A stretch of DNA of 23,902 nt from a virus. The DNA lies in IMG/VR virus record IMGVR_UViG_3300025769_010750, positions 1 to 23,902 of that record, one strand, 5' to 3'. A model generated the notes under the pieces. That model made no database searches, was not told where the DNA came from, and was given only the letters and a program-made list of their open reading frames with translations. Of the stretch, positions 3,435 to 23,520 are shown one piece after another. Both the position numbers and the translations under genes were made by a program. How positions within the stretch are numbered: the first letter of the stretch is position 1; each line of letters opens with the position of its first letter.

Positions 3435-6125
3435 ATGGCATCATTTGATTTAGATACATTTCTTACGGCACAGGGCCAAACGGGAGCTGGACCTGTACAG
3501 GCTTTAGGTATGGCGTATGGTGTTCCTAGCTGTATGCTTAACTTGGCTTCTGATGTTCTTAGCTTATTACCTTCTCCGGTGCTAATTTCTATGAACTTAG
3601 CAGCACAACAAGGAAAAGCTAAAGCAAATGAGATTATTCAAAAATTATTTAGAATCCTACAATTTGATTTAGGCATTATAACCTTTGATACTGAGACAGG
3701 AACCTTTCAATTTAAATTAGATGATGGGTGGCTGGGAGTTGATTTTACCGCTCTCGGTGAAATACTATCTTTGATCAATGGACTAACCGCTTTCGGAGCA
3801 CAAATCTACCAAAACCTTAATGCTGCTATAGATCAAGTCGAGGCAATTATTGATTGTGTAGGTAAGTTTGGCGACTACATGAGTGCCAAAGACCCCGGAT
3901 ATGCAGCCCGGACGGTTTCTCCGGAGGAGCGAAGAGCAGCAGTTGAAAACAAATATGCTGCGGGAATAGCTTCGGCTAATACAGCTAAGGACTTCGTAAA
4001 CCGAGTCGATGCTTTTGAAGCTAGAATAAATAGTATTATCAAGGCCAGAAGAGATGACCCTTCTCTAGAGCCTGTCTTCAAAGATGACTCAGAGTTCGGG
4101 TTGAGCGGTCTTAATACTTCTGCTTCTATTGATCCTGGACTTTCTGAGGAGGACACTTTTAGACTTACGTTTGGGCCTCCCGAAACAGTTACAGGTCAAT
4201 ACATATTAACTAAGGATGGATTATATTACGATTCGCAGACAGGGGGCTTAGACCCAATCATCACATCTATTTCTGGTATTGTCCCTGTTGGGGAAAGGTG
4301 GAAATACAATTATGATCCTAACCTAGGTGGAAAGGGAGATAAGATAGATATAAATTCTCTAAATAAGTTTGCTGATAATATATTTGATCCAAACATAATT
4401 GACGATAGCATAGGGCTCACAGTATATTACGATCAAGATCATTTTTTACAAGTTATAAAGCAGCAGAGGGATAAACTAGTATTTGATCTTTCTGGCGACC
4501 TCCAAGTATTTATTGAACAACATGGAGAGGACTCTTCCATTGTTTTAAATCAAAAACAACTTATTATATCAGAAATAGCTAATCACAACGACAAGCTAAA
4601 CAGAAGAAAGAAGCAGATTGAAGTTGCTGTAAAAGCTCCTCAAATTTATGGTGGAGAGACACAGCCTATATTCCCTCCGGGCGATGTTCCAATTAATGAT
4701 TTCTCCTTCCTAGCTGATTATAATTTGCAGGTTGATTTAGAAAAGCAGCGGGCTCTAGTTTTTGAACAGGCGGAAGTAAACGGAATAGTTCTTCCCCTGA
4801 ATCCCAAGTTCGTTAGGTCCACACCGAAACCAAGGTCTCTCAGCTATGAGCATTTAAATGTTCCGACCATAGGTAGAGGTAGTATTATTTACTCTCCCTC
4901 GTCTACTGACCAAACGAATGCGACGGTACTTTCTTTAACGGACAACATCGTTACAGATAAATTATTTGCTATTTATAATTTCTTAGACACTAACTTAGAG
5001 CTACCTTCATCTACGAACTTTACCTCGACCAATTGCGCTACGGATGATAACTATAACAACGCACAGTTGGTAGGCACTTCAAGACAGACCATATTTGCTT
5101 CTGGATTAGCTATTCCTTATCTAGGAGGGATTACTAAGAATAAGGGGACCGCAGGAAACACCGCAGCGGCATCCGCGCTAGGAAGCTTCTTAAAGCTCCC
5201 TGATACTAAAGAGTATCAAAATTTAACCTACTCACCTTCGGGCTTTAGTATGGAGTGCTGGGTTCATGTACCGGACATTTTAGATAGCGAGGCTGGCTGG
5301 TTAAGCACTGGGGCTTCTTCTTTAACTAAGGTGCTACTAGCTTCAGAAAATGTAGGAATCAAGGAAGGTTTCTCTAATCTAGACAGAATGGGCCAAGAAA
5401 GAGACCTAGATTACTTGCCGAATAACAAGGGGGATCAACTCGTTAGAGGTATGCTTTGCGGGTTCACCAGAGATAGAAGAATAACGCAATTATCTACGTC
5501 ATCGAACCCCATAGGCTTCAGTAACAGTAATGCTGATAATGATCCCGTGTCGTCTCTTAGCTTTTTCATTGCCCCAACGATATCAAAAGATGCATCCTCG
5601 GCATCTTTTGTTAACAGCGATGAGTGTGCAGACTACCCTATATTCCATAAGATGAAAGTAGATCTCTCGGCAACGGCTTTCGGGAATGTGTCTTCACAGT
5701 TTGTTCTTGTAGGGATAGCGTGCGATCCGAAGGAAAATACAGTAAAAATGTATGCAGATGGGGAGCTAGTGGCTACTTCTTCAATAAATGAAGTGTTTGG
5801 TGTACCTGAATATCAAACGCCCTCACTACCAAACTTTAAACAACCTAATAGCTTTGAGTATTCATCCACAACTGTGGATGGACCGCAGATACTTAAACAA
5901 GGTCCTCTACTGTATGATTTTTATACACCCTGGATCGTAGGAGGCGGATATACTGACGGAATGTTTTACCGGGGCAACTTCCTAGGAGGAGACCGTGGAG
6001 GCATAACGAGCGGTCTTCGCGGCCATGTGGGAAGCCTCAAATTTTACGGTAAAGCACTAGATAGTAGAGAAGTAAAAAAGAACTTTGACGCTCAAAAAGG
6101 CTTCTTCAAAAATATTAAAATCTAA
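3435..6125 (+). CDS. Large baseplate protein with C-terminal LamG/concanavalin-A-like lectin domain
   Basis: This is a virion protein of 896 residues, probably a baseplate-attached adhesin. Residues 1-160 are hydrophobic and helix-rich (LNLASDVLSLLPSPV, then LGEILSLINGLTAFGAQ), plausibly a packing region inside the baseplate, but I do not recognise the family. Residues about 160-450 are mixed charged helices, including a likely coiled-coil near residues 340-400 (NHNDKLNRRKKQIEVAVK). Residues about 590-890 have the LamG_3 pattern: FSMECWVHVPD opening, LVGIACDPKENTVKMYADGE in the middle, and GHVGSLKFYGKALDSREV close to the end. Such jelly-roll domains usually bind sugars or proteins. The gene sits between spike and gp25 genes, which are adjacent in P2-type clusters. 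It overlaps the next gene by one base (TAATG), implying translational coupling. The lectin fold is fairly secure; the ligand is unknown. Confidence 0.75.
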   Translation: MASFDLDTFLTAQGQTGAGPVQALGMAYGVPSCMLNLASDVLSLLPSPVLISMNLAAQQGKAKANEIIQKLFRILQFDLGIITFDTETGTFQFKLDDGWLGVDFTALGEILSLINGLTAFGAQIYQNLNAAIDQVEAIIDCVGKFGDYMSAKDPGYAARTVSPEERRAAVENKYAAGIASANTAKDFVNRVDAFEARINSIIKARRDDPSLEPVFKDDSEFGLSGLNTSASIDPGLSEEDTFRLTFGPPETVTGQYILTKDGLYYDSQTGGLDPIITSISGIVPVGERWKYNYDPNLGGKGDKIDINSLNKFADNIFDPNIIDDSIGLTVYYDQDHFLQVIKQQRDKLVFDLSGDLQVFIEQHGEDSSIVLNQKQLIISEIANHNDKLNRRKKQIEVAVKAPQIYGGETQPIFPPGDVPINDFSFLADYNLQVDLEKQRALVFEQAEVNGIVLPLNPKFVRSTPKPRSLSYEHLNVPTIGRGSIIYSPSSTDQTNATVLSLTDNIVTDKLFAIYNFLDTNLELPSSTNFTSTNCATDDNYNNAQLVGTSRQTIFASGLAIPYLGGITKNKGTAGNTAAASALGSFLKLPDTKEYQNLTYSPSGFSMECWVHVPDILDSEAGWLSTGASSLTKVLLASENVGIKEGFSNLDRMGQERDLDYLPNNKGDQLVRGMLCGFTRDRRITQLSTSSNPIGFSNSNADNDPVSSLSFFIAPTISKDASSASFVNSDECADYPIFHKMKVDLSATAFGNVSSQFVLVGIACDPKENTVKMYADGELVATSSINEVFGVPEYQTPSLPNFKQPNSFEYSSTTVDGPQILKQGPLLYDFYTPWIVGGGYTDGMFYRGNFLGGDRGGITSGLRGHVGSLKFYGKALDSREVKKNFDAQKGFFKNIKI
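5584..5610 (+). repeat. Perfect 10-bp inverted repeat inside the lectin-domain gene
   Basis: CAAAAGATGC and GCATCTTTTG flank a seven-base loop (ATCCTCG). As RNA this is a compact hairpin ending in a U-rich 3' arm, similar in shape to a weak intrinsic terminator, but it lies well inside an open coding sequence. It may be chance. Confidence 0.5.
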
Positions 6126-14206: not shown

Positions 14207-17200
14207 ATGGCATTCAACAAAGATGACGTTTATACAAGCAGCGGCAGCGTGGTGCTGTTTAATTCTTGGACACCTTATGTTTCCAAGTTTGATACCAGCA
14301 CGTTCTACAACTGGGAGCAGGACAATGTTCCCCTTTATGATTTAGAAGAGCGCACATATGAACTTTGGGAGCAAGGAGGATTCGCTACCTCTGCGGGTGT
14401 CCCAGGTATAGCTTTAACTGTGTCTGCGGACACTCCTGAGCTTACCCTCCAACAAAACACAAACATATTTGTTGACGTTAGTTCTGCCATTGCGGCTATC
14501 CCAAAGGTGGTACGTTTTCCTGTCCTCATTGAAGTAGGAAACTTTGGAGATTTAGGTCCACTAGAGTTACACAACTTTAGAATAGAAGAAGAGGGATCCA
14601 TTGAGATCATCAACAGAAACTTTGCTAGAACGTACAATGCTTCTTCCGACGTTAGAGCGGTAGCAACACCCTCGGTAGGAGAATACTTGCAAGCACCTAC
14701 TCAAATTAGTTCCCTAGACCTGAGCAACAGTTTAAGGGATACTTCTTGTGTTCATATATCGACATCTGTTTTATCAGGAACAGGGGACCCTAGATTTAAT
14801 CAGGTTAACTCGGTCTTTTTTCCTTCTCACTCATTACGATCCACCCCCTTAGCAGTTACCTTAGCGGATGGTAATTTTAGAACGGGAACAGTTAACGAAT
14901 TCAGCCCAAACGTATTTGAGAATTTCACCACAGATCAAACAATACCTACAACTGATTTAAGTTCTCTAGATTCTAACATCCTAGCAAACCTAAAAAGACC
15001 TCAGGTTTCTGTTTCAGATGCTTTAGGAGGAAATGTTTACGGTAACTCTTGTTCCAAGATTACTGTCAAGAATTGCGATGGACCCATATACATAAGAAAC
15101 TTTTTTGTTAACTCCGAGAATCTAGAAAAAACGGGCATAGAGGTAAATAATTCTAAAGTATTAATTGAGAACTGCGCGGCTGTTAGGGCTAAAGAAGCTG
15201 GATTTAAATTCGTTAATTCAGATGTTACGCTTTCTAGATCAGCGTTTTCGTATAGAAATTATACCTTAGGGGACCCTGCCACTACTAGAGAAGCTGATTT
15301 GGGGATTGGGTTTCACCTAATCAACAGTGAAGTTCTCGTTAGCTCTTTACCTCTTGATGTTGGGTCCACCAGTGTAGGCGATGTAGGGGCAGAGGGAAGA
15401 GACGCTACGGTTGTAGCTTCCAGAAACACAAAAGGATTTGTTTTAGAAAATTCAAAGCTTCGTGGTGGAGTAAAAAGAACATCCGGGTCAAACCCAGCAA
15501 CGGGGGGTGTCGTTTGCTCAGAGCTAAACACCAGTGCGGGCATCGTTCTTAACAATTCCTATATTGAGTTAAAAGGATTGATTGACATTTATGCCAATGA
15601 TGAGGGCATAGTCTCAGAAAATTCTTTTATTAAGTATGAAAATCTTACTGTTGACGGAAACCAGAAAAACGGATTAAAGAGTTTAACCTCTACAACAATA
15701 TTTGATTCAGACACAATACTTGATGATACAAATAGAAAACAACTTGAGTTCTCTGGAAACTCTGTCCATGTTGATCTTCGTGGAGGGAGCACGTTTGGGT
15801 TTGAGTTGAAAACAAGTGTCCCGCAGGTGTATGGAAATTCTTTCTTTAGAAATGCCTTCGGGGGTTCTCCTGCTGTCTACGCCTCAGATAATTCAAACGT
15901 AGACCTAGTAAAACCTTTTATTGACGTTACCGATGTTGACAATGGCACTGTAAATGCACAACAGGTTTATTACGGTAGAGCGATCAAAGCAACTAACGGT
16001 TCTGTAGCCAGCTTAAATGGAGCAAGCACTGGAGCTACACTACTGTTAGGTCCAGCCGCGTACCCTACTCAGAGAGTTATGGCAGGAGCCTGTGCAGAAA
16101 ATAACTCTACAATAAACTTTCATGGACCGACAGCGGTGGCTCAGTTTGGTGTAGATGTTTTAGCAAAAGATAATTCGGTTACCAATTTCGAGCCCAGAAG
16201 AATTAAAGGTTCCTATGCTCCAGATAGTTTATCTTTTGATCTAAGTGCCGCAGAAAATCATACAACAGTTGAACTTCATTCTACTCGCTCATGTATTGTT
16301 GCACAAAAAAATAGCACGATAAACATGCGAGACTTGGGAGCTTTCCCAGGAAACTGGGGATCGACACCTAGCGGGATTGCGATACTAGATAGGGTAAGCT
16401 ATTCGCTTCCTTTAAGTGGTGATGTATCAGGAGGGTCCATGCAGTTTTTCTCTAACCCTCAAGACGCTGCAAAGATAGCAGCAGAAACACTAAATTCTGT
16501 TGGTGCTTTAACAACGCCACTAATTCCTACTAAATCTGGAAGAACCAACACTTTACTTATTAATGATGGGGGGTATCAGAGTCCTAACTACACTACTCGA
16601 CAGGGAATCTCTTTTGGTGGTGTCTGCTTGAGAGCAGTCGAAGATAGTTTAGTTAATGTTCAAAATGTACACTTCCCTGTTCCTGTAAACGGAAGTCCGG
16701 CAGACGGGCTTTACTACGATACCAGCGGAGAGGAGTGTAATCAATTCAATATTTGGAATATTGCGGATAGCTCTAGGCTAAACGCCTCTTACGTTTCCCT
16801 AAGCGGTATGCACCCTATAGATTGTATACAGCATGGTCCAAGTGCAATATATACTTCATCTGTAGATTTAACTTCTACAGATGAAGTTGTAGCGCGAGGA
16901 GCACCGCCTAAAACACCTGATACAGGCTCGCTAAGTATTCTAGATGCTTTTGGGGCTGGAAGTGCTGTTTGGATTATTCCTTCAGGTGTGGATGTTAATT
17001 CAGAGTTCGACAGATTTTATCCTGTATCGGGGGATGTTAATTTCGAGACTGCTGAAGCATTATCCCAAGCAGGTATAAATTACAGCGGGACCGCCGCGTA
17101 TACCTTTGGGGTTAGCGGGGCCTTTAACAACAGAGGCTTCTTTAGATTATATTGGTCTCCAAAAGCTAGTGCTCGATTATTACAAAGTGATCTAAGTGGC

Positions 17201-17644
17201 GGAAGATATGGAGCTTTCCCCCACACAGGAGACTTCTCAGGAGTGCTTGGACCAGCATATCAGATCTTTTCTCAAGGGTACAACTGTTCTGCTCCATTGT
17301 CCGCGATAGTTCCTGATGGATATGCAAACGCAAGTTCCATAGCCCCCGACTTACTTAAACTTAGCCTTGATAGTAATGGTGATGGAGTTAACGATAGTCT
17401 TTGGACTTCTGGCTTTTATTACTGCTCTGAGATGCTGGAAGAGAATCCAACACAATGTATTTTGGAAGAATCAGCAGCAGATATGTTTGCAAATGCCAGA
17501 AACGCCAGCGTGGGATTAGGGGGAAGGCCCAGAAAAACTACAATTTACAGTGATAGCACGGATAGAGACGGGGAGTCCTATCCTGGCGATCAAATAGGAG
17601 GCTTTAAATCATCCTCTATCTTTGACCTTTCGAGGGATAACTAA
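14207..17644 (+). CDS. Parallel beta-helix tail fibre/spike-like protein
   Basis: A 1145-residue protein, likely a trimeric or monomeric fibre or tailspike. Residues 27-56 contain FYNWEQDNVPLYDLEE, a motif shared with the next gene and a candidate anchor. Residues about 280-710 consist of short recurring rungs such as GIEVNNSKVLIENCAA, GFKFVNSDVTLSRSAF, GFVLENSKLRGG and GIVLNNSYIELKG, with Asn-Ser turns typical of right-handed parallel beta-helices (pectate-lyase-like fold). No lyase or glycosidase catalytic set is evident to me, so enzymatic activity on host polysaccharide is possible but not shown. Residues 1055-1063 read DSNGDGVND, a DxNxDGxxD calcium-binding loop of the dockerin/thrombospondin-3 type. 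The start is one base after the previous stop, without a strong ribosome binding site, and the end overlaps the next ATG by one base (TAATG). A perfect 14-bp inverted repeat lies in its 3' third. Confidence 0.78.
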   Translation: MAFNKDDVYTSSGSVVLFNSWTPYVSKFDTSTFYNWEQDNVPLYDLEERTYELWEQGGFATSAGVPGIALTVSADTPELTLQQNTNIFVDVSSAIAAIPKVVRFPVLIEVGNFGDLGPLELHNFRIEEEGSIEIINRNFARTYNASSDVRAVATPSVGEYLQAPTQISSLDLSNSLRDTSCVHISTSVLSGTGDPRFNQVNSVFFPSHSLRSTPLAVTLADGNFRTGTVNEFSPNVFENFTTDQTIPTTDLSSLDSNILANLKRPQVSVSDALGGNVYGNSCSKITVKNCDGPIYIRNFFVNSENLEKTGIEVNNSKVLIENCAAVRAKEAGFKFVNSDVTLSRSAFSYRNYTLGDPATTREADLGIGFHLINSEVLVSSLPLDVGSTSVGDVGAEGRDATVVASRNTKGFVLENSKLRGGVKRTSGSNPATGGVVCSELNTSAGIVLNNSYIELKGLIDIYANDEGIVSENSFIKYENLTVDGNQKNGLKSLTSTTIFDSDTILDDTNRKQLEFSGNSVHVDLRGGSTFGFELKTSVPQVYGNSFFRNAFGGSPAVYASDNSNVDLVKPFIDVTDVDNGTVNAQQVYYGRAIKATNGSVASLNGASTGATLLLGPAAYPTQRVMAGACAENNSTINFHGPTAVAQFGVDVLAKDNSVTNFEPRRIKGSYAPDSLSFDLSAAENHTTVELHSTRSCIVAQKNSTINMRDLGAFPGNWGSTPSGIAILDRVSYSLPLSGDVSGGSMQFFSNPQDAAKIAAETLNSVGALTTPLIPTKSGRTNTLLINDGGYQSPNYTTRQGISFGGVCLRAVEDSLVNVQNVHFPVPVNGSPADGLYYDTSGEECNQFNIWNIADSSRLNASYVSLSGMHPIDCIQHGPSAIYTSSVDLTSTDEVVARGAPPKTPDTGSLSILDAFGAGSAVWIIPSGVDVNSEFDRFYPVSGDVNFETAEALSQAGINYSGTAAYTFGVSGAFNNRGFFRLYWSPKASARLLQSDLSGGRYGAFPHTGDFSGVLGPAYQIFSQGYNCSAPLSAIVPDGYANASSIAPDLLKLSLDSNGDGVNDSLWTSGFYYCSEMLEENPTQCILEESAADMFANARNASVGLGGRPRKTTIYSDSTDRDGESYPGDQIGGFKSSSIFDLSRDN
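16853..16887 (+). repeat. Perfect 14-bp inverted repeat inside the beta-helix gene
   Basis: ACTTCATCTGTAGA and TCTACAGATGAAGT are exact reverse complements separated by seven bases (TTTAACT). The left arm begins on a codon boundary and the element encodes residues 883-894 (TSSVDLTSTDEV). It would form a stable mRNA hairpin or a DNA cruciform. An exact match of this length so close together is unlikely by chance in 24 kb. Confidence 0.85.
17369..17395 (+). other. Calcium-binding loop (DxNxDGxxD) in the beta-helix protein
   Basis: The codons spell DSNGDGVND. Asp, Asn and Asp at alternating positions with a Gly and a final Asp fit the dockerin/EF-hand-like loop seen in extracellular calcium-binding repeats. 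Only one copy is visible, so it would be an isolated site near the C-terminal domain. Confidence 0.55.
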
Positions 17645-20280
17645 TGGCAGAGCAAATTTACGAAGAGAGTGTTTACAGTTTCACTGACCCTGTAAGATTA
17701 TTTAAAGCAAATGATCCTTACTATTTTGAGGTTGACAATATTCCTCTTAAGCAATTACAAGAGAACTGTCTTTGGTTAAAAGATCAGATCAGAAGAGATG
17801 TTCTAAAGATTAGCAATGTTAAAAGAGTAGACATTGAAGAACTAAGACCTTACGCTGGAGGTGGAGATAGAATTGTTAGAGTAAAGCCGGGCAGGTTTAC
17901 AGCTAGAATTAATGATGCTGCTACAAAAACACCTTTGGCTTACCTCAGAAAAATTTTGGGTTTGGAGATTGGTGAGGTTGATGTTTATGAAGCTGCTCTT
18001 CCAAACCCAGGGACGTTTAGTTCAGAAACAGAAAGTGCTGCCAATGCCCTTCTAGTAGATGCCTTGGACACATTTAAATCTAGACTAGCAGAAGACTCCT
18101 TAGCATTAAATGGTTTGGGTGAGAGGTCATTTACTTGGCCTATGATTACACCTGACCGACCAATAGATCAAAACGGAGTAACCGTGTCCACCCAAGCGGA
18201 CTCTGGGGCTTTAGGCTACGAGAGTCCTGGTGGTGGTCAAGCAGCAGAGCTTGTGCCAATGATTATTACTGAGGCTTTGGTTTGGGCGAAAGCTAGGAAC
18301 GCCGTATCAGATAGAATTACTCTAACGACTTACGATTACAACAACCCGTTCAACGGGTTTGCTACCCTGCCTAAGACCGATTCATTCTTCATTAGAGCTT
18401 GGAGAGGCGTAGCTAGAACTGCAATCGTAGACGTTCCTGAGGAATTAACAATTGAAGTCCCTAACTTCGATGATGACGATTTTAATTACATCGACGAGAA
18501 CGGAGACGAAGCCAGAGTTGATAATGTTTATAACAGGATCGACATGGTTTTCATTTACAGTAAGCCTATTGACGCTAGTTCTACCACTGTGCTTAAGGGT
18601 TCGGGTAAGGAGGTGATCACAGCCCCAACTCTAGGCATTGTAAGGGGTGCAGGAATCAAGGCCAACCTTGAAGGCACCACAAATTACAGGGAAGAGTATC
18701 TTCAAAGTACAGGCGATGATCACAAGATCATGGCTTCTCCAGGAGATACTGAGAATGAGAACATTGGGTTTACTGCTGCCTCAGCTAATGACATAGCTTT
18801 TGATGTCAGAGGTAGCTTCCCTGCTCCTGATGACCTTCTAAATATTGCTCCACTGCTCTCTGAGCAATTAGAGGCTAACGCCTTTGAGTTAGTAGGACAA
18901 TCCATTCTCCCCGTAGCGTATGTGTGGGTCACCAGGGGCTCTTCTGTAGTTTCTACAACTGATGTTATTGATATTCGACCTTTGTTTAGAACTGCGGAAC
19001 TAAGCTACAATGAGCGAGCGGGTATTGCCGCTGCTCTACCTCAACTATCCTTAGCTAATCCTGCCGTGGGTAAAGCTCAAATGGATTATGAGTTAAAGCG
19101 TCAGTACGATTCTATTAATGCTAGACTTCAAAACTTAGAAGTAGAATCGGAAGCAGGTCCCCCACAAGGAATGAGAACAATTGCCGCTGGGTATGTTTTC
19201 GGTGGATGGAACTTTGGCCCTGAGGGTGCCATGTATGATTTTTACAGAAAAGTATTCTCTCAGGATTTAAATCCAGACAACGATTCAGAAGCTGCTATTA
19301 AGGATTATATAAAACAAAAGTACGGATTGTCTAGAACAGGGTTCGAAGTTCCTGCTTATCCCGATTGGGATTTAGCAGAGTGGGCGCTGCTAAATACAGA
19401 CTTAACTGAAGTAGGTAGATTTCCTAACGACTATATAAACACTTTCTTTTCTCAATACGGAAACTTGGATAATACTAGTGTGGCAGATGGCAGCATTGTC
19501 GCAGGAGCGGCAAAAGAATTTGTTGGACCGGATGGATTAAACTCCTCAGAAGAACCCCCCGCCAGACAAATTCAATTCAATAACGCCACAATGGCTTCAC
19601 AAAGTTCAGATAGTAACTCCGGCTCGGCAGCAAATCGGCTCAACGGACAAAGAGTTCACTTTAGCTTTATTAAAAAACGAATAGAGTTTGATAGAGAAGC
19701 ATATCCGGGTATGATTGATTATACTATAGACATAGACTTTGTTAACAGTATTCCTCAAATTTCAGGTGCCCGTGGAGATGATGGGGGCCTTGGGTTTGGC
19801 GGCAGCCAAGGAACTAATTATAATAACCTAGCTCCTAATGCAACAGAAGAAGCAAGGTACATTGGAAACTGGGTAGAAAAAGGAGAGGATTATTTCATAA
19901 TTTATGTGGCGTTTGCAACGCACGATATAGCGACTGGAGGAGGCAGCACCTTTTTTGGAAGCAACTATGGACCCCTTGTACCTGCACCTCATACAATTTC
20001 TACGGGTAGTCAGTCAGTTAGCCTTAGTGAAAGAGGTGGAGAAAGGTTTAGTTCTTTCGTAGTTCCTGTGGAGGATATTCTAAGATCTAACCCCAACCCG
20101 CAGTCCTCAATATTTGGTTCGACTTCGAGAAGGTTTAGCGGTTACTTAGGAAACCCTAGATTGGGTAAGTGTACTTATCCTACCATTACATGGTCTATGA
20201 AGTCGGTCTCGCAGGAAGATGCTAACTTCTTCTACGGGAACCTAAACTCCAACAATGTAATTACTCTTAATCAAAGCTAA
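17644..20280 (+). CDS. Large virion protein sharing the DN-[VI]-PL N-terminal motif
   Basis: An 878-residue structural protein of unrecognised family. Residues 25-45 (PYYFEVDNIPLKQLQENCLW) parallel residues 32-54 of the beta-helix protein upstream; both have an aromatic pair, an acidic residue, then DN-[VI]-PL-x-x-L and a Leu/Trp helix. Residues about 65-300 contain a beta-rich domain that includes RIVRVKPGRFTARIND and a Pro-rich strand; residues about 395-450 end in VAYVWVTRGS then TTDVIDIRPLFR. Residues about 477-500 are a short charged helix (MDYELKRQYDSINARLQNLE), a likely coiled-coil, after which a separate C-terminal region (AAGYVFGGWNFGPEG onward) begins. No enzyme motif is seen. The ATG overlaps the upstream TAA by one base. 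It may be a fibre adaptor or a decoration protein of the baseplate rim; this is inference from the shared motif and position. Confidence 0.72.
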   Translation: MAEQIYEESVYSFTDPVRLFKANDPYYFEVDNIPLKQLQENCLWLKDQIRRDVLKISNVKRVDIEELRPYAGGGDRIVRVKPGRFTARINDAATKTPLAYLRKILGLEIGEVDVYEAALPNPGTFSSETESAANALLVDALDTFKSRLAEDSLALNGLGERSFTWPMITPDRPIDQNGVTVSTQADSGALGYESPGGGQAAELVPMIITEALVWAKARNAVSDRITLTTYDYNNPFNGFATLPKTDSFFIRAWRGVARTAIVDVPEELTIEVPNFDDDDFNYIDENGDEARVDNVYNRIDMVFIYSKPIDASSTTVLKGSGKEVITAPTLGIVRGAGIKANLEGTTNYREEYLQSTGDDHKIMASPGDTENENIGFTAASANDIAFDVRGSFPAPDDLLNIAPLLSEQLEANAFELVGQSILPVAYVWVTRGSSVVSTTDVIDIRPLFRTAELSYNERAGIAAALPQLSLANPAVGKAQMDYELKRQYDSINARLQNLEVESEAGPPQGMRTIAAGYVFGGWNFGPEGAMYDFYRKVFSQDLNPDNDSEAAIKDYIKQKYGLSRTGFEVPAYPDWDLAEWALLNTDLTEVGRFPNDYINTFFSQYGNLDNTSVADGSIVAGAAKEFVGPDGLNSSEEPPARQIQFNNATMASQSSDSNSGSAANRLNGQRVHFSFIKKRIEFDREAYPGMIDYTIDIDFVNSIPQISGARGDDGGLGFGGSQGTNYNNLAPNATEEARYIGNWVEKGEDYFIIYVAFATHDIATGGGSTFFGSNYGPLVPAPHTISTGSQSVSLSERGGERFSSFVVPVEDILRSNPNPQSSIFGSTSRRFSGYLGNPRLGKCTYPTITWSMKSVSQEDANFFYGNLNSNNVITLNQS

Positions 20281-20282
20281 GG

Positions 20283-23200
20283 ATGTCTGAGACTACGTTC
20301 GGTTGCGGAGACTTCCTACCAGGAAGAGGCCCATTTAACTTCCCTGATTTTATTGAGGGCGGTAATGTTAATGACCCTGATCCGCCCGATCCTGATCCTC
20401 CTGGAACTAAGACTGAAGCTGACCCAACTGATCCTCCTGTTGTTGTAGACCCAGGTGGGGGTGGTCCTGCCGCCCTTCCTGGAGGACCCACAACTATTCC
20501 TCCAGGGGGTGGAGGTGGAGGAGGTGGTCCAGGAACCCCTATAACGCCCGCTCCTGGCCCGGCAGGTCCTGTACGCCCAGGAGGTCCTACCTCTCCAGGC
20601 CCATCAATACCAGGGGCTCCAGCAGCACCCCCTAACCCGAAAGAATGCCGTTGTGTCATTAACGAGAATAGGATTAGTGTTAATTATAACGTAAGATTTG
20701 ATGGTACTAGGGTATGGAATATTACGTTTAATCAAAAATGCGTAAGACAGCCCATAGGAACACCTAACACTACGCAAACAGTCATAGATGATTTTATTGC
20801 CACCCTTCCACTTGGAGGCGAATTATCTATAGAAGGTACAGGTTTCGGCTATGAGAACTGTAATACAGGAACTACTACAGCCCCTAGATGTAACGGAGAA
20901 TGTCCAGCTATTAGTGCTAGATATACTATTCCGGCAATCCCCGATCCCCCGGCCCCAGGCCCCCCTGCAATTAACCCCGGCGAAGAGCCGCCGGGTCCTC
21001 GACCAATAAGTCCTCAGCCTAAGCCCACAGGAGGTGGCGGCGGTCCCTTTACGCCTATAGGTGGTGGACCATCTGCTCCAGCCCCAAGTAATCCTGGAGG
21101 GGGTGGTGGAGGAGGAGGTGTGGTTAGCGCAGGTCCTCAAAGCCCCGGCCCAGGCCCTGTGCGACCCGGTATTACTAATGCTGGACCACAGGACCCCATA
21201 GAACCTATATCTCCTGGAGGTGGAGGCAATGGGTATACTCCCTTAGACGATTTACCTTCCGCTCCTCCTCCTAGCGTTCCTGGCGGTGGTGGAGGTGGCG
21301 GTGGTAGTGGCCCAAGCAGTGCTGGCCCCCAAGGACCCGCTGCGCCCGCAGTTCCGGCTGATCCCGGCGGCAACACTGGGGGAGGTGGCGGTGGAGAGCC
21401 TATAGGCAATCTCCCTGAAAAAGATCCTACAGGTGGCTTTAATTTTGTTGGAGGAGGTGTTGTAGGTAGAAGCACAAGAGATACCCTTGATAATGCAATA
21501 AATTCTTTGGAATCAGTTAGCTCAATAAACTTAAGTGATCCAAAGATATCTAAAGAAATACTGGCTCGACGACCCTCTGGTTTTGAGGATGAAGAAATTT
21601 TCTTTGACGATACTCCTGAAAAATCAGTATTTGTTGAAAACACAAGTAAGGTTACTGACATCTTCGCCAGGGTCATAGACAATAATATTCTTTACCTTTT
21701 ACAAAACCAGTCTAACTTTGGTGACTGGGAAAGTAAGAGAGCTGGAGGAGTTACTCCTGATACTGTTTACAGAAGCCTTAACGAAGAGACAAAAGAAATA
21801 CTATCCACTATACTAAATTATGATCGTTCTCCTATAAATAAGACTCAAATATATAACATGATAGGAACCAGAATTCTTGATGGAACTATAGCTAAAATTA
21901 CTAAAGGGAGCTTGCGTGTATTAGCGGAAGGCAGCAAGAAGGAAACACCTTTAGAAATTACTAGAAGTAAATCAGATATTGTAAATGAGACTATAGCGTT
22001 GGCACTTGTTGAGAGAGGTTTTTATCCTCTAGAGCCAAATAAGTCTCTAGGCAAAGCAGCAGAGACGTTAAAAAATCAAAAAATTCTTTCTAGCGACATT
22101 GACAGATTTATCTCTGTTACATTGGGGGGAGAAGAGCAAAGATATTATGTTAATGATGACGATACTTTTATTGGCAGAAGCACCTTATCGCTACAGGACG
22201 GGGAATATTTTGACGTTACCATAGGTGGAGAAACAACCAGACTTTACGCTCAGTCAGAAAAAGATCATGCGTATTTTGTACCAGAAAAAACAAGGCAAAT
22301 TGCTATAAAAATTTTAGGGGGAGATCCAGGCAGAACCCTCTCTGTTAGTGGAGATCCGTCAGGTATTGAATTAGACTACTCTCTCAACACACCAAGGGAA
22401 AATATTTACTTCCTTAGTTGTGTGTTAAGTTCAATAACCACGAGCCCAGACCTGTCAAACAACAGACATTTAAAGCAGTCTAGGGCACAATATGATTTAG
22501 TCAGTCTTAGGAATATAAATGAGATAAATGAATATATTAAGTATAAAAATAATCATCAAACTTTTATTTTGGACGATGAAGATTTGATTTTAGATTATGT
22601 CGAGAGGGACGGTAAGTTATTTTTAAATCAAACGGATATCATTGTGGACTCCCCAAAAGAAAACAAAACTCTGCCCCTACTGACACGGCAGATCCCCTGG
22701 TATATTCTGCTTTATCCAACTAATAAGACGGAAAATAACCCCTTTAATGGTAAATCCCAAATAACAAACATAACTCCGTCATCCACGTCAACTTCGGGAA
22801 GTATAACTAGACAATTAAAAACAAAAACTAGTATTGTTCCTGCTTTTAGAAACTCATTCAACCAGTTTATTAGTACAGAATTAGTTGGAAGAGGAGCTAA
22901 AGATGTTTTAGAACAGCCTACGAACCAAGCTAGAATAAACAAGTTAAACCTAACTAATAAAATTATTAACTCTGGTTACGTTAATTCTAATAAGGAAGAG
23001 GTAGCGGCAGCAGACTACTCACCCAATAGAAGTAAAACTGGGTACAGATTATTATCAGAAATTATAAAGGAACTAGATACTAATTATCTTTTAGGGCTTA
23101 ATGGTATAGGTAAATCAGTCACTGAGTTTGATGTGCTATCTAGGCTTAAGTTTAGAGAATTTAATATTCTGTCTAGATTAGAAAGTTTTAATAATATTAA

Positions 23201-23444
23201 AAACGCTATATTTAATGGAAGCATCAACAAAGTTAAAGTTATCCCAGGCACAAAGTTTGCCGACTCTAAACTAGCTATCAGAAAGACACAATTAGTTCGT
23301 AGAAAGTCTTCGGCTCCTGCTGAAGATCAGTTTCCAGAAATCAAGTCAACTAATTTTAATAGATCTATTAGTCCACCCACTGTTGACAGCCCACCTGATT
23401 TTGCTCCATTCGAACCTCCCACGCCGCCCACAGCACTACCGTAA
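20283..23444 (+). CDS. Gly/Pro-rich modular virion-associated protein with cysteine insert
   Basis: A 1053-residue protein not recognised from any family. Residues 1-30 are a short conserved-looking head. Residues 31-120 and 219-383 are Gly/Pro-rich and disordered, with runs of seven or eight glycines and acidic-proline repeats (DPDPPDPDPP). Between them, residues 121-218 form a compact beta-rich insert with six cysteines (122, 124, 153, 193, 203, 207; another Cys at 8). Residues about 390-1015 are ordinary mixed alpha/beta sequence, starting with charged helices (for example TLDNAINSLESV) and including ISVTLGGEEQRYYVNDDD and DGEYFDVTIGGETTRLYA, which look like two copies of a small beta-hairpin. 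The last 25 residues are Pro-rich again. The gene is two bases after the previous stop, with only AGG directly against the ATG. It is the last gene before the only sizeable gap. A long, flexible virion protein is likely; its place in the particle is unknown. Confidence 0.75.
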   Translation: MSETTFGCGDFLPGRGPFNFPDFIEGGNVNDPDPPDPDPPGTKTEADPTDPPVVVDPGGGGPAALPGGPTTIPPGGGGGGGGPGTPITPAPGPAGPVRPGGPTSPGPSIPGAPAAPPNPKECRCVINENRISVNYNVRFDGTRVWNITFNQKCVRQPIGTPNTTQTVIDDFIATLPLGGELSIEGTGFGYENCNTGTTTAPRCNGECPAISARYTIPAIPDPPAPGPPAINPGEEPPGPRPISPQPKPTGGGGGPFTPIGGGPSAPAPSNPGGGGGGGGVVSAGPQSPGPGPVRPGITNAGPQDPIEPISPGGGGNGYTPLDDLPSAPPPSVPGGGGGGGGSGPSSAGPQGPAAPAVPADPGGNTGGGGGGEPIGNLPEKDPTGGFNFVGGGVVGRSTRDTLDNAINSLESVSSINLSDPKISKEILARRPSGFEDEEIFFDDTPEKSVFVENTSKVTDIFARVIDNNILYLLQNQSNFGDWESKRAGGVTPDTVYRSLNEETKEILSTILNYDRSPINKTQIYNMIGTRILDGTIAKITKGSLRVLAEGSKKETPLEITRSKSDIVNETIALALVERGFYPLEPNKSLGKAAETLKNQKILSSDIDRFISVTLGGEEQRYYVNDDDTFIGRSTLSLQDGEYFDVTIGGETTRLYAQSEKDHAYFVPEKTRQIAIKILGGDPGRTLSVSGDPSGIELDYSLNTPRENIYFLSCVLSSITTSPDLSNNRHLKQSRAQYDLVSLRNINEINEYIKYKNNHQTFILDDEDLILDYVERDGKLFLNQTDIIVDSPKENKTLPLLTRQIPWYILLYPTNKTENNPFNGKSQITNITPSSTSTSGSITRQLKTKTSIVPAFRNSFNQFISTELVGRGAKDVLEQPTNQARINKLNLTNKIINSGYVNSNKEEVAAADYSPNRSKTGYRLLSEIIKELDTNYLLGLNGIGKSVTEFDVLSRLKFREFNILSRLESFNNIKNAIFNGSINKVKVIPGTKFADSKLAIRKTQLVRRKSSAPAEDQFPEIKSTNFNRSISPPTVDSPPDFAPFEPPTPPTALP
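20643..20936 (+). other. Six-cysteine insert between Gly/Pro-rich segments
   Basis: Codons 121-218 encode a folded-looking segment opening ECRCVINENR, with beta-strands ISVNYNVRFDG and VWNITFNQKC and a closing C-x9-C-x3-C cluster. Even numbers of cysteines in an otherwise cysteine-poor protein suggest disulfides or a metal site. I recognise no domain family. Confidence 0.5.
21030..21332 (+). repeat. Two diverged Gly/Pro repeat cassettes in protein 20283-23444
   Basis: Residues 250-286 and 312-350 follow one plan: a Gly run, [FY]-T-P, PSAP, PS-x-P, eight glycines, then SAGPQ. A partial third copy (GGGGGGEPIGNLP) follows at residues 366-377. The plan suggests internal duplication of a roughly 60-residue unit. 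DNA identity is partial, so the duplication is not recent or has been shuffled by slippage. Confidence 0.65.
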
Positions 23445-23483: not shown

Positions 23484-23490
23484 CTAAATA
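23484..23490 (+). promoter_or_regulatory. Possible T4-type late promoter box (CTAAATA)
   Basis: CTAAATA resembles the T4 late -10 element TATAAATA and lies 41 bases before the ATG at 23532, in the only non-coding gap of the window. A transcript starting a few bases downstream would carry a leader of about 35 bases with an AGGA ribosome binding site. The motif is short and AT-rich, so it could be chance. Confidence 0.35.
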
Positions 23491-23520
23491 ACCTAGAGAT
23501 GAAAATCTTAACCTTTTTAT

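Follow-up and report, generated by a model that had tools for sequence, protein, structure and literature searches.

In T2-type phages, the adhesin gp38 carries hypervariable segments set between Gly-rich motifs (PMC12892980, PMC6851490). A second described system, the fibritin (wac) of T4-like phages, is a variable locus with domain swapping (PMC3797505), and a third, Hoc, combines a conserved C-terminal domain with variable N-terminal domains whose number differs as well (PMC10385173). Disulfides in a virion have a precedent in the Agrobacterium phage Milano (PMC10811340). The lineage described here may belong to the “Far-T4” assemblage of phages known from aquatic viromes (PMC4360716).

Here, a gene termed F0 is described from a window of 23,902 nucleotides, the whole stretch of DNA that was analysed (positions 1 to 23,902 of IMG/VR record IMGVR_UViG_3300025769_010750). 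With a probability of roughly 60%, its product would be exposed on the virions of an uncultured lineage of T4-like phages and serve in display or adsorption. In its architecture, a variable Gly/Pro tether with zero to three cysteine modules lies between an N-terminal motif of 24 residues and a C-terminal domain (“C-domain”) of 645. The features of the locus are as follows.

17644-20280, plus strand: upstream gene F3, which ends 2 bases ahead of F0
19444-20133, plus strand: hypervariable C-terminal part of F3, about residues 601-830, varying like the N-terminal half of F0
20283-23444, plus strand: complete gene F0 (1053 residues), with homologues on 37 contigs
20283-20354, plus strand: N-terminal motif of F0, residues 1-24, T-F-x-C-G-x-x-L-P-G-x-G-P, present in every F0 with an intact N terminus
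20355-20636, plus strand: linker 1, residues 25-118, Gly/Pro-rich and acidic-Pro by sequence composition
20637-20948, plus strand: six-Cys module, residues 119-222, identified from Cys spacing, profiles, and a model
20949-21449, plus strand: linker 2, residues 223-389, with poly-Gly runs and PGPQxP-like segments, holding recombination boundaries
21507-23441, plus strand: conserved C-domain, residues 409-1053 (645 residues), with a confident AlphaFold model
23373-23441, plus strand: Pro-rich C-terminal tail, the last 23 residues, kept in close relatives by sequence comparison
23484-23509, plus strand: CTA[A/G]ATA and an AGAGAT..ATCTT inverted repeat between F0 and F5, recognized from 16 loci including the window and from its fold

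Gene F0 and its setting in the tail cluster

The preliminary description of this DNA had reported, at 20283-21431, a Gly/Pro-rich tract split by a beta-rich insert with six cysteines. Composition, Cys positions, and a model of the insert confirm the tract and its insert, but the interval spans merely the first 383 of the 1053 residues of F0. With the module left out of the count, Gly and Pro make up 27.7 and 26.0% of residues 1-389; a composition count of the C-terminal part gives 5.6 and 5.3%. The linkers hold seven runs of 4-8 Gly, and because the poly-Gly codons are mixed synonyms, the bias lies at the level of the protein and not in a simple repeat of the DNA. Contig L081, which was recovered via the module, is 99-100% identical to the window along 4.86 kb and represents the same phage, so that the interval is, as far as checked, not a local assembly artefact.

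The window F0 contains eight Cys in all, two of them outside the module at residues 8 and 713. A further claim, that the tail cluster is otherwise Cys-poor, is contradicted by the ORF at 14207-17644, which has 13 Cys in 1145 residues compared with 8 in 1053 for F0; the unusual point in F0 is that six Cys fall inside 86 residues. The repeats of this 1145-residue ORF look like a beta-helix, and the ORF has no match in Pfam, PHROG, or phages. Elsewhere in the window, the C-terminal third of the ORF at 3435-6125 resembles by eye a lectin-type (LamG/concanavalin-like) domain, with no Pfam support at E 0.1. The FGCG of the N-terminal motif could be read as a lipoprotein signal, but this reading was rejected as no hydrophobic segment precedes Cys8. 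The motif is absent from all other ORFs of the loci and is a possible anchor.

Relatives of F0 are encoded by 37 distinct IMG/VR contigs, all of them metagenomic, with C-domain identities of 33-75% when L081 is set aside. One contig, L038/L076 (IMGVR 3300045125_000023), carries many frameshifts across all conserved genes, which identifies an error-prone assembly and excludes the stop-codon recoding considered for L038. Wherever gene order is visible it is constant (F11, F4, F2, F1, F3, F0, F5, F7, F9, gp21 protease, F10, gp23, F13, and F12, which is gp13), placing F0 shortly ahead of the prohead protease (gp21) and gp23 genes. T4-like cluster genes were found both in the window, where gp25 and gp6 lie upstream and the run gp25-gp6-F11-F4-F2-F1-F3-F0 ends with F0, and in relatives (gp21, gp23, gp13, and, farther downstream in L021, gp15). 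By this gene content, the source is an uncultured T4-like (Straboviridae/Kyanoviridae-like) phage lineage, whose gp23 shares about 30% identity with its cyanophage homologues. The best gp6 match came from an uncultured phage of 595 kb, in which the 30 kb inspected hold no F0-F5 homologue. Judged from identities of 42-52% for the F0 C-domain versus 73-81% for gp23, F0 as a whole diverges much faster than gp23.

The element between F0 and F5 occurs once per locus (for example, at 7968 in L012, 9948 in L030, and 10825 in L034). On sequence grounds, CTA[A/G]ATA is probably a late promoter, with the inverted repeat as a 5' leader hairpin. The presence in sixteen loci of this promoter-like element and hairpin right after F0 suggests that F0 closes the tail operon.

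F0 ends the tail cluster, a place taken in T4 by wac, and a variable locus with swapped domains is also a property of fibritin (PMC3797505). Identification of F0 as a neck whisker or collar fibre, the positional equivalent of T4 fibritin, is nevertheless quite improbable. Comparison with T4 wac gave an hhalign probability of 0.12 on a scale of 0-100, in a profile-to-single-sequence search of limited sensitivity. The F0 model lacks the long helices of a coiled-coil shaft, the longest, in the C-domain, having 15 residues, and the N-terminal half is Gly/Pro-rich. Moreover, gp13 of the F0 lineage sits beyond the head genes, and the variable part of F0 lies in its N-terminal half whereas that of fibritin lies at the C terminus.

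The cysteine module and the C-terminal domain

In the window, the module Cys are residues 122, 124, 153, 193, 203, and 207 (codons starting at 20646, 20652, 20739, 20859, 20889, and 20901), an arrangement of the form C-x-C...C...C...C...C within about 100 residues. Copies per F0 protein range from none to three: one in the window and L010-L013, two in L004, L005, L007-L009, L026, L035, and L036, and three in L006. L028 has none, so that the module is dispensable there. Conservation of the cysteines among homologues, the lack of which would have told against the preliminary description, proved to be strong. Profiles were built without the distant copies they recover. One from near relatives recovered the modules of distant relatives at E values of 1e-14 to 6e-4, and a wider one those of further relatives at 3e-18 to 1e-8, degenerate copies included, with shuffled controls staying above 0.2. 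By these statistics, the homology of the modules goes beyond visual resemblance or chance; L054 and L068 are called module carriers by pattern only, with no confirmation from the profile.

Other Cys-rich segments can occupy the same slot, as in L055, L066, and L075. The alternative segments (L055:9542-9700, L066:9140-9320, L075:2088-2270, and residues 315-335 of L026) consist of a W-x-C...C...C...C segment and C-x-x-P-E-A-T-N-F-like repeats, and the alternative L055 knob has no match in Pfam, PDB, or phages. In L066 and L075, a further insert, some 150-200 residues long and with no known relatives, follows the Cys repeats and separates the slot from the C-domain.

An even number of Cys is found in 34 of 35 modules (six in 19, eight in 8, two in 4, and four in 3), the exception being L060 with seven. 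Losses and gains also come in pairs. C1 and C5 are jointly missing from copy 2 of L018/L019; C1, C2, C5, and C6 are jointly gone in L032/L033, leaving C3 and C4 alone; and L026, L035, L037, and L073 share an extra pair, its members placed ahead of C3 and behind C6. In L032 and L033, both modules have C3 and C4 only, and poly-Pro replaces poly-Gly in the tether. This pairing favors intramolecular disulfides over metal binding or cross-links, and the simplest reading is apparently C1-C5, C2-C6, and C3-C4 with an optional fourth bond, a map behind which stand few independent events; Cys parity is not independent among related sequences. A metal site in the module is disfavored by the even counts and by the two-Cys modules. 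The earlier picture of a cross-linkable or metal-binding knob in an intermolecular net thus gives way to one of Cys that would act as intramolecular pairs. In Milano, sheath and baseplate subunits are joined to each other by disulfides (PMC10811340), whereas the Cys pairs of F0 appear confined to one small domain.

Structures were modelled by AlphaFold2 with family alignments. The module is predicted to be beta-rich, with four strands and one helix (pLDDT 89, pTM 0.77), and the C-domain to be of alpha/beta type (pLDDT 88.5, pTM 0.87). Foldseek returned nothing significant for the module in PDB (best E 0.35) and no Ig-fold match, and Pfam likewise gave no Ig-like domain. For the C-domain, nothing significant appeared in PDB (best E 0.07) or in BFVD, which was searched with this domain only (best E 0.05). 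By sequence and fold, neither matched a family in Pfam, PHROGs, or PDB, weak single matches being at chance level. F0 has no relatives in 50,697 phage records or, by a pattern-based scan, in GTDB species genomes; F0, F1, and F3 are without relatives among cultured phages; and T4 gp6-gp14, wac, Hoc, and the S-SRM01 tail proteins show no homology to F0 in profile-to-single-sequence comparisons, whose sensitivity is limited. Thus, these searches gave F0 no homologue of known function and no structural match hinting at binding. The earlier statement that no described family has such an architecture holds in every library searched (Pfam, PHROGs, PDB, BFVD, cultured phages, and GTDB), and the profile search proposed for the C-terminal part matched no known non-virion protein, a match that would have told against the virion assignment then made.

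F0 has the plan of Hoc (PMC10385173), with modules on linkers in variable number and a displayed part that evolves fast, and it adjoins the head genes. It could accordingly be pictured as a Hoc-like head fibre or decoration protein with its conserved C-domain bound to gp23, but this is very unlikely. The C-domain profile reached an hhalign probability of 0.16 (E 0.37) against T4 Hoc, a single target sequence with limited sensitivity, and the F0 domain is about seven times larger. The variable part comprises six-Cys domains without an Ig-fold match and not an Ig-like string, and F0 has a conserved N-terminal motif as well. F0 also follows the tail gene F3, with which it is coupled, and is parted from the head operon by the promoter-like element.

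Chaperone genes often come right after fibre genes. F0 could therefore be a non-virion assembly factor or chaperone for an F3 fibre, its Cys module serving as a redox or metal-binding folding aid, and the large, conserved alpha/beta C-domain would suit such a role. Poly-Gly/Pro tethers and recombining optional domains would, however, be unusual for a chaperone, structural disulfides would suit the even numbers of Cys and their loss in pairs, and two-Cys modules cannot build a four-Cys metal site, so that the odds against this role are long.

A hypervariable block across F3 and F0

In all nine pairs compared, a valley of identity takes in the last 250-300 or so residues of F3 and about the first 400 of F0, flanked by the conserved N-terminal part of F3 on one side and the conserved C-domain of F0 on the other. 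F3 is presumed to be fibre-like, and its C-terminal part is a candidate receptor-binding tip on the basis of sequence. Past the hypervariable C-terminal third, the last 50 or so residues of F3 look conserved.

L030 and L037 have 85-86% DNA identity in both flanks, which span 6.6 kb on the upstream and 2.7 kb on the downstream side, but barely align in between, from about the last 240 F3 codons through the N-terminal half of F0. Between the window and L015, the valley is limited to F3, and the N-terminal half of F0 is a shared island of 90-98% identity at about 20144-20844, with flanks at 57-80%; agreement at silent sites is 0.90 in the module but drops to 0.4-0.5 over most of the C-domain. Part of linker 2 is 87% identical in DNA between L020 and the window, although the protein identity of their C-domains is 61%; a segment of 465 bp is common to L003 and L018 at 91%; and L010 has a linker 1 resembling that of the window with a module just 28% identical. 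As read from identity profiles, the module and linkers of F0 are exchanged by recombination, leaving a mosaic, and their shuffling between phages resembles that of receptor-binding parts.

The coupling of F0 to F3 invites comparison with gp38, which caps gp37 in T2-type phages, and raises the prospect that F0 is a tip-associated adhesin on an F3 fibre that sets host range; genes for a fibre tip and its adhesin adjoin and can be swapped together. Like gp38 of S16 and PP01 (PMC12892980, PMC6851490), here compared by description only, F0 lies directly 3' of a gene, presumed to encode a fibre, with a hypervariable C terminus, in this case after 2 bases, and it has Gly runs, up to eight residues long as in S16 gp38, and modular hypervariable segments. 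The F3 C terminus and the N-terminal half of F0 are hypervariable in the same pairs and were replaced jointly in L030/L037. These two parts do not always move together, however, as the window and L015 have a common F0 N-terminal half and differing F3 tips. The polyglycine sandwich of gp38 exceeds 50% Gly, whereas F0 has seven runs of 4-8 Gly in a mixed composition of 28% Gly and 26% Pro with long spacers. In gp38, attachment is through an N-terminal three-helix domain with Trp; the N terminus of F0 shows no such domain but a Trp-free motif of 24 residues and then a Gly/Pro linker. F0 is also far larger, with Cys modules, and its conserved 645-residue C-domain has no counterpart in gp38. On balance, a gp38-like role is unlikely.

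F0 as a candidate display protein

Because F0 fails the sequence and fold tests for Hoc and fibritin and shows the features of gp38 only in part, it would represent a new family of modular virion surface proteins. Its position in the tail cluster, modularity, and hypervariability point to a protein present in the virion with its tethers and knobs exposed. The same properties fit the exposed appendage of the preliminary description; the net is unsupported and the knob is optional. As a virion-exposed display or adsorption protein, F0 would be fixed to the particle by its conserved ends, with the F3 fibre tip, the collar, or the head as candidate sites. The Gly/Pro tethers would hold the knobs off the particle, and disulfides forming after lysis in oxidising water would stiffen these knobs, which may make fast-evolving contacts with the host surface or with environmental glycans or proteins. 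The size and conservation of the C-domain do not resemble those of a simple adhesin stalk, and F0 may therefore have a role in assembly.

A tentative extension, held at clearly less than even odds, is that the tether of F0 is a recombinogenic display slot, which takes up, multiplies, and drops small disulfide-rich domains of several kinds between fixed ends and forms with the fibre tip one hypervariable receptor-interaction cassette. If this is true, the slot would be nature's own equivalent of phage display, on two folds new to science.

Host-recognition and display proteins of uncultured T4-like phages are mostly unannotated in metagenomes, and F0 provides a marker gene for one such lineage. 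Its defined hypervariable region can be compared with host data, it has two domains whose folds have no known relatives, and the gain and loss of Cys in pairs allows the disulfide map to be put to the test on a small domain in recombinant form.
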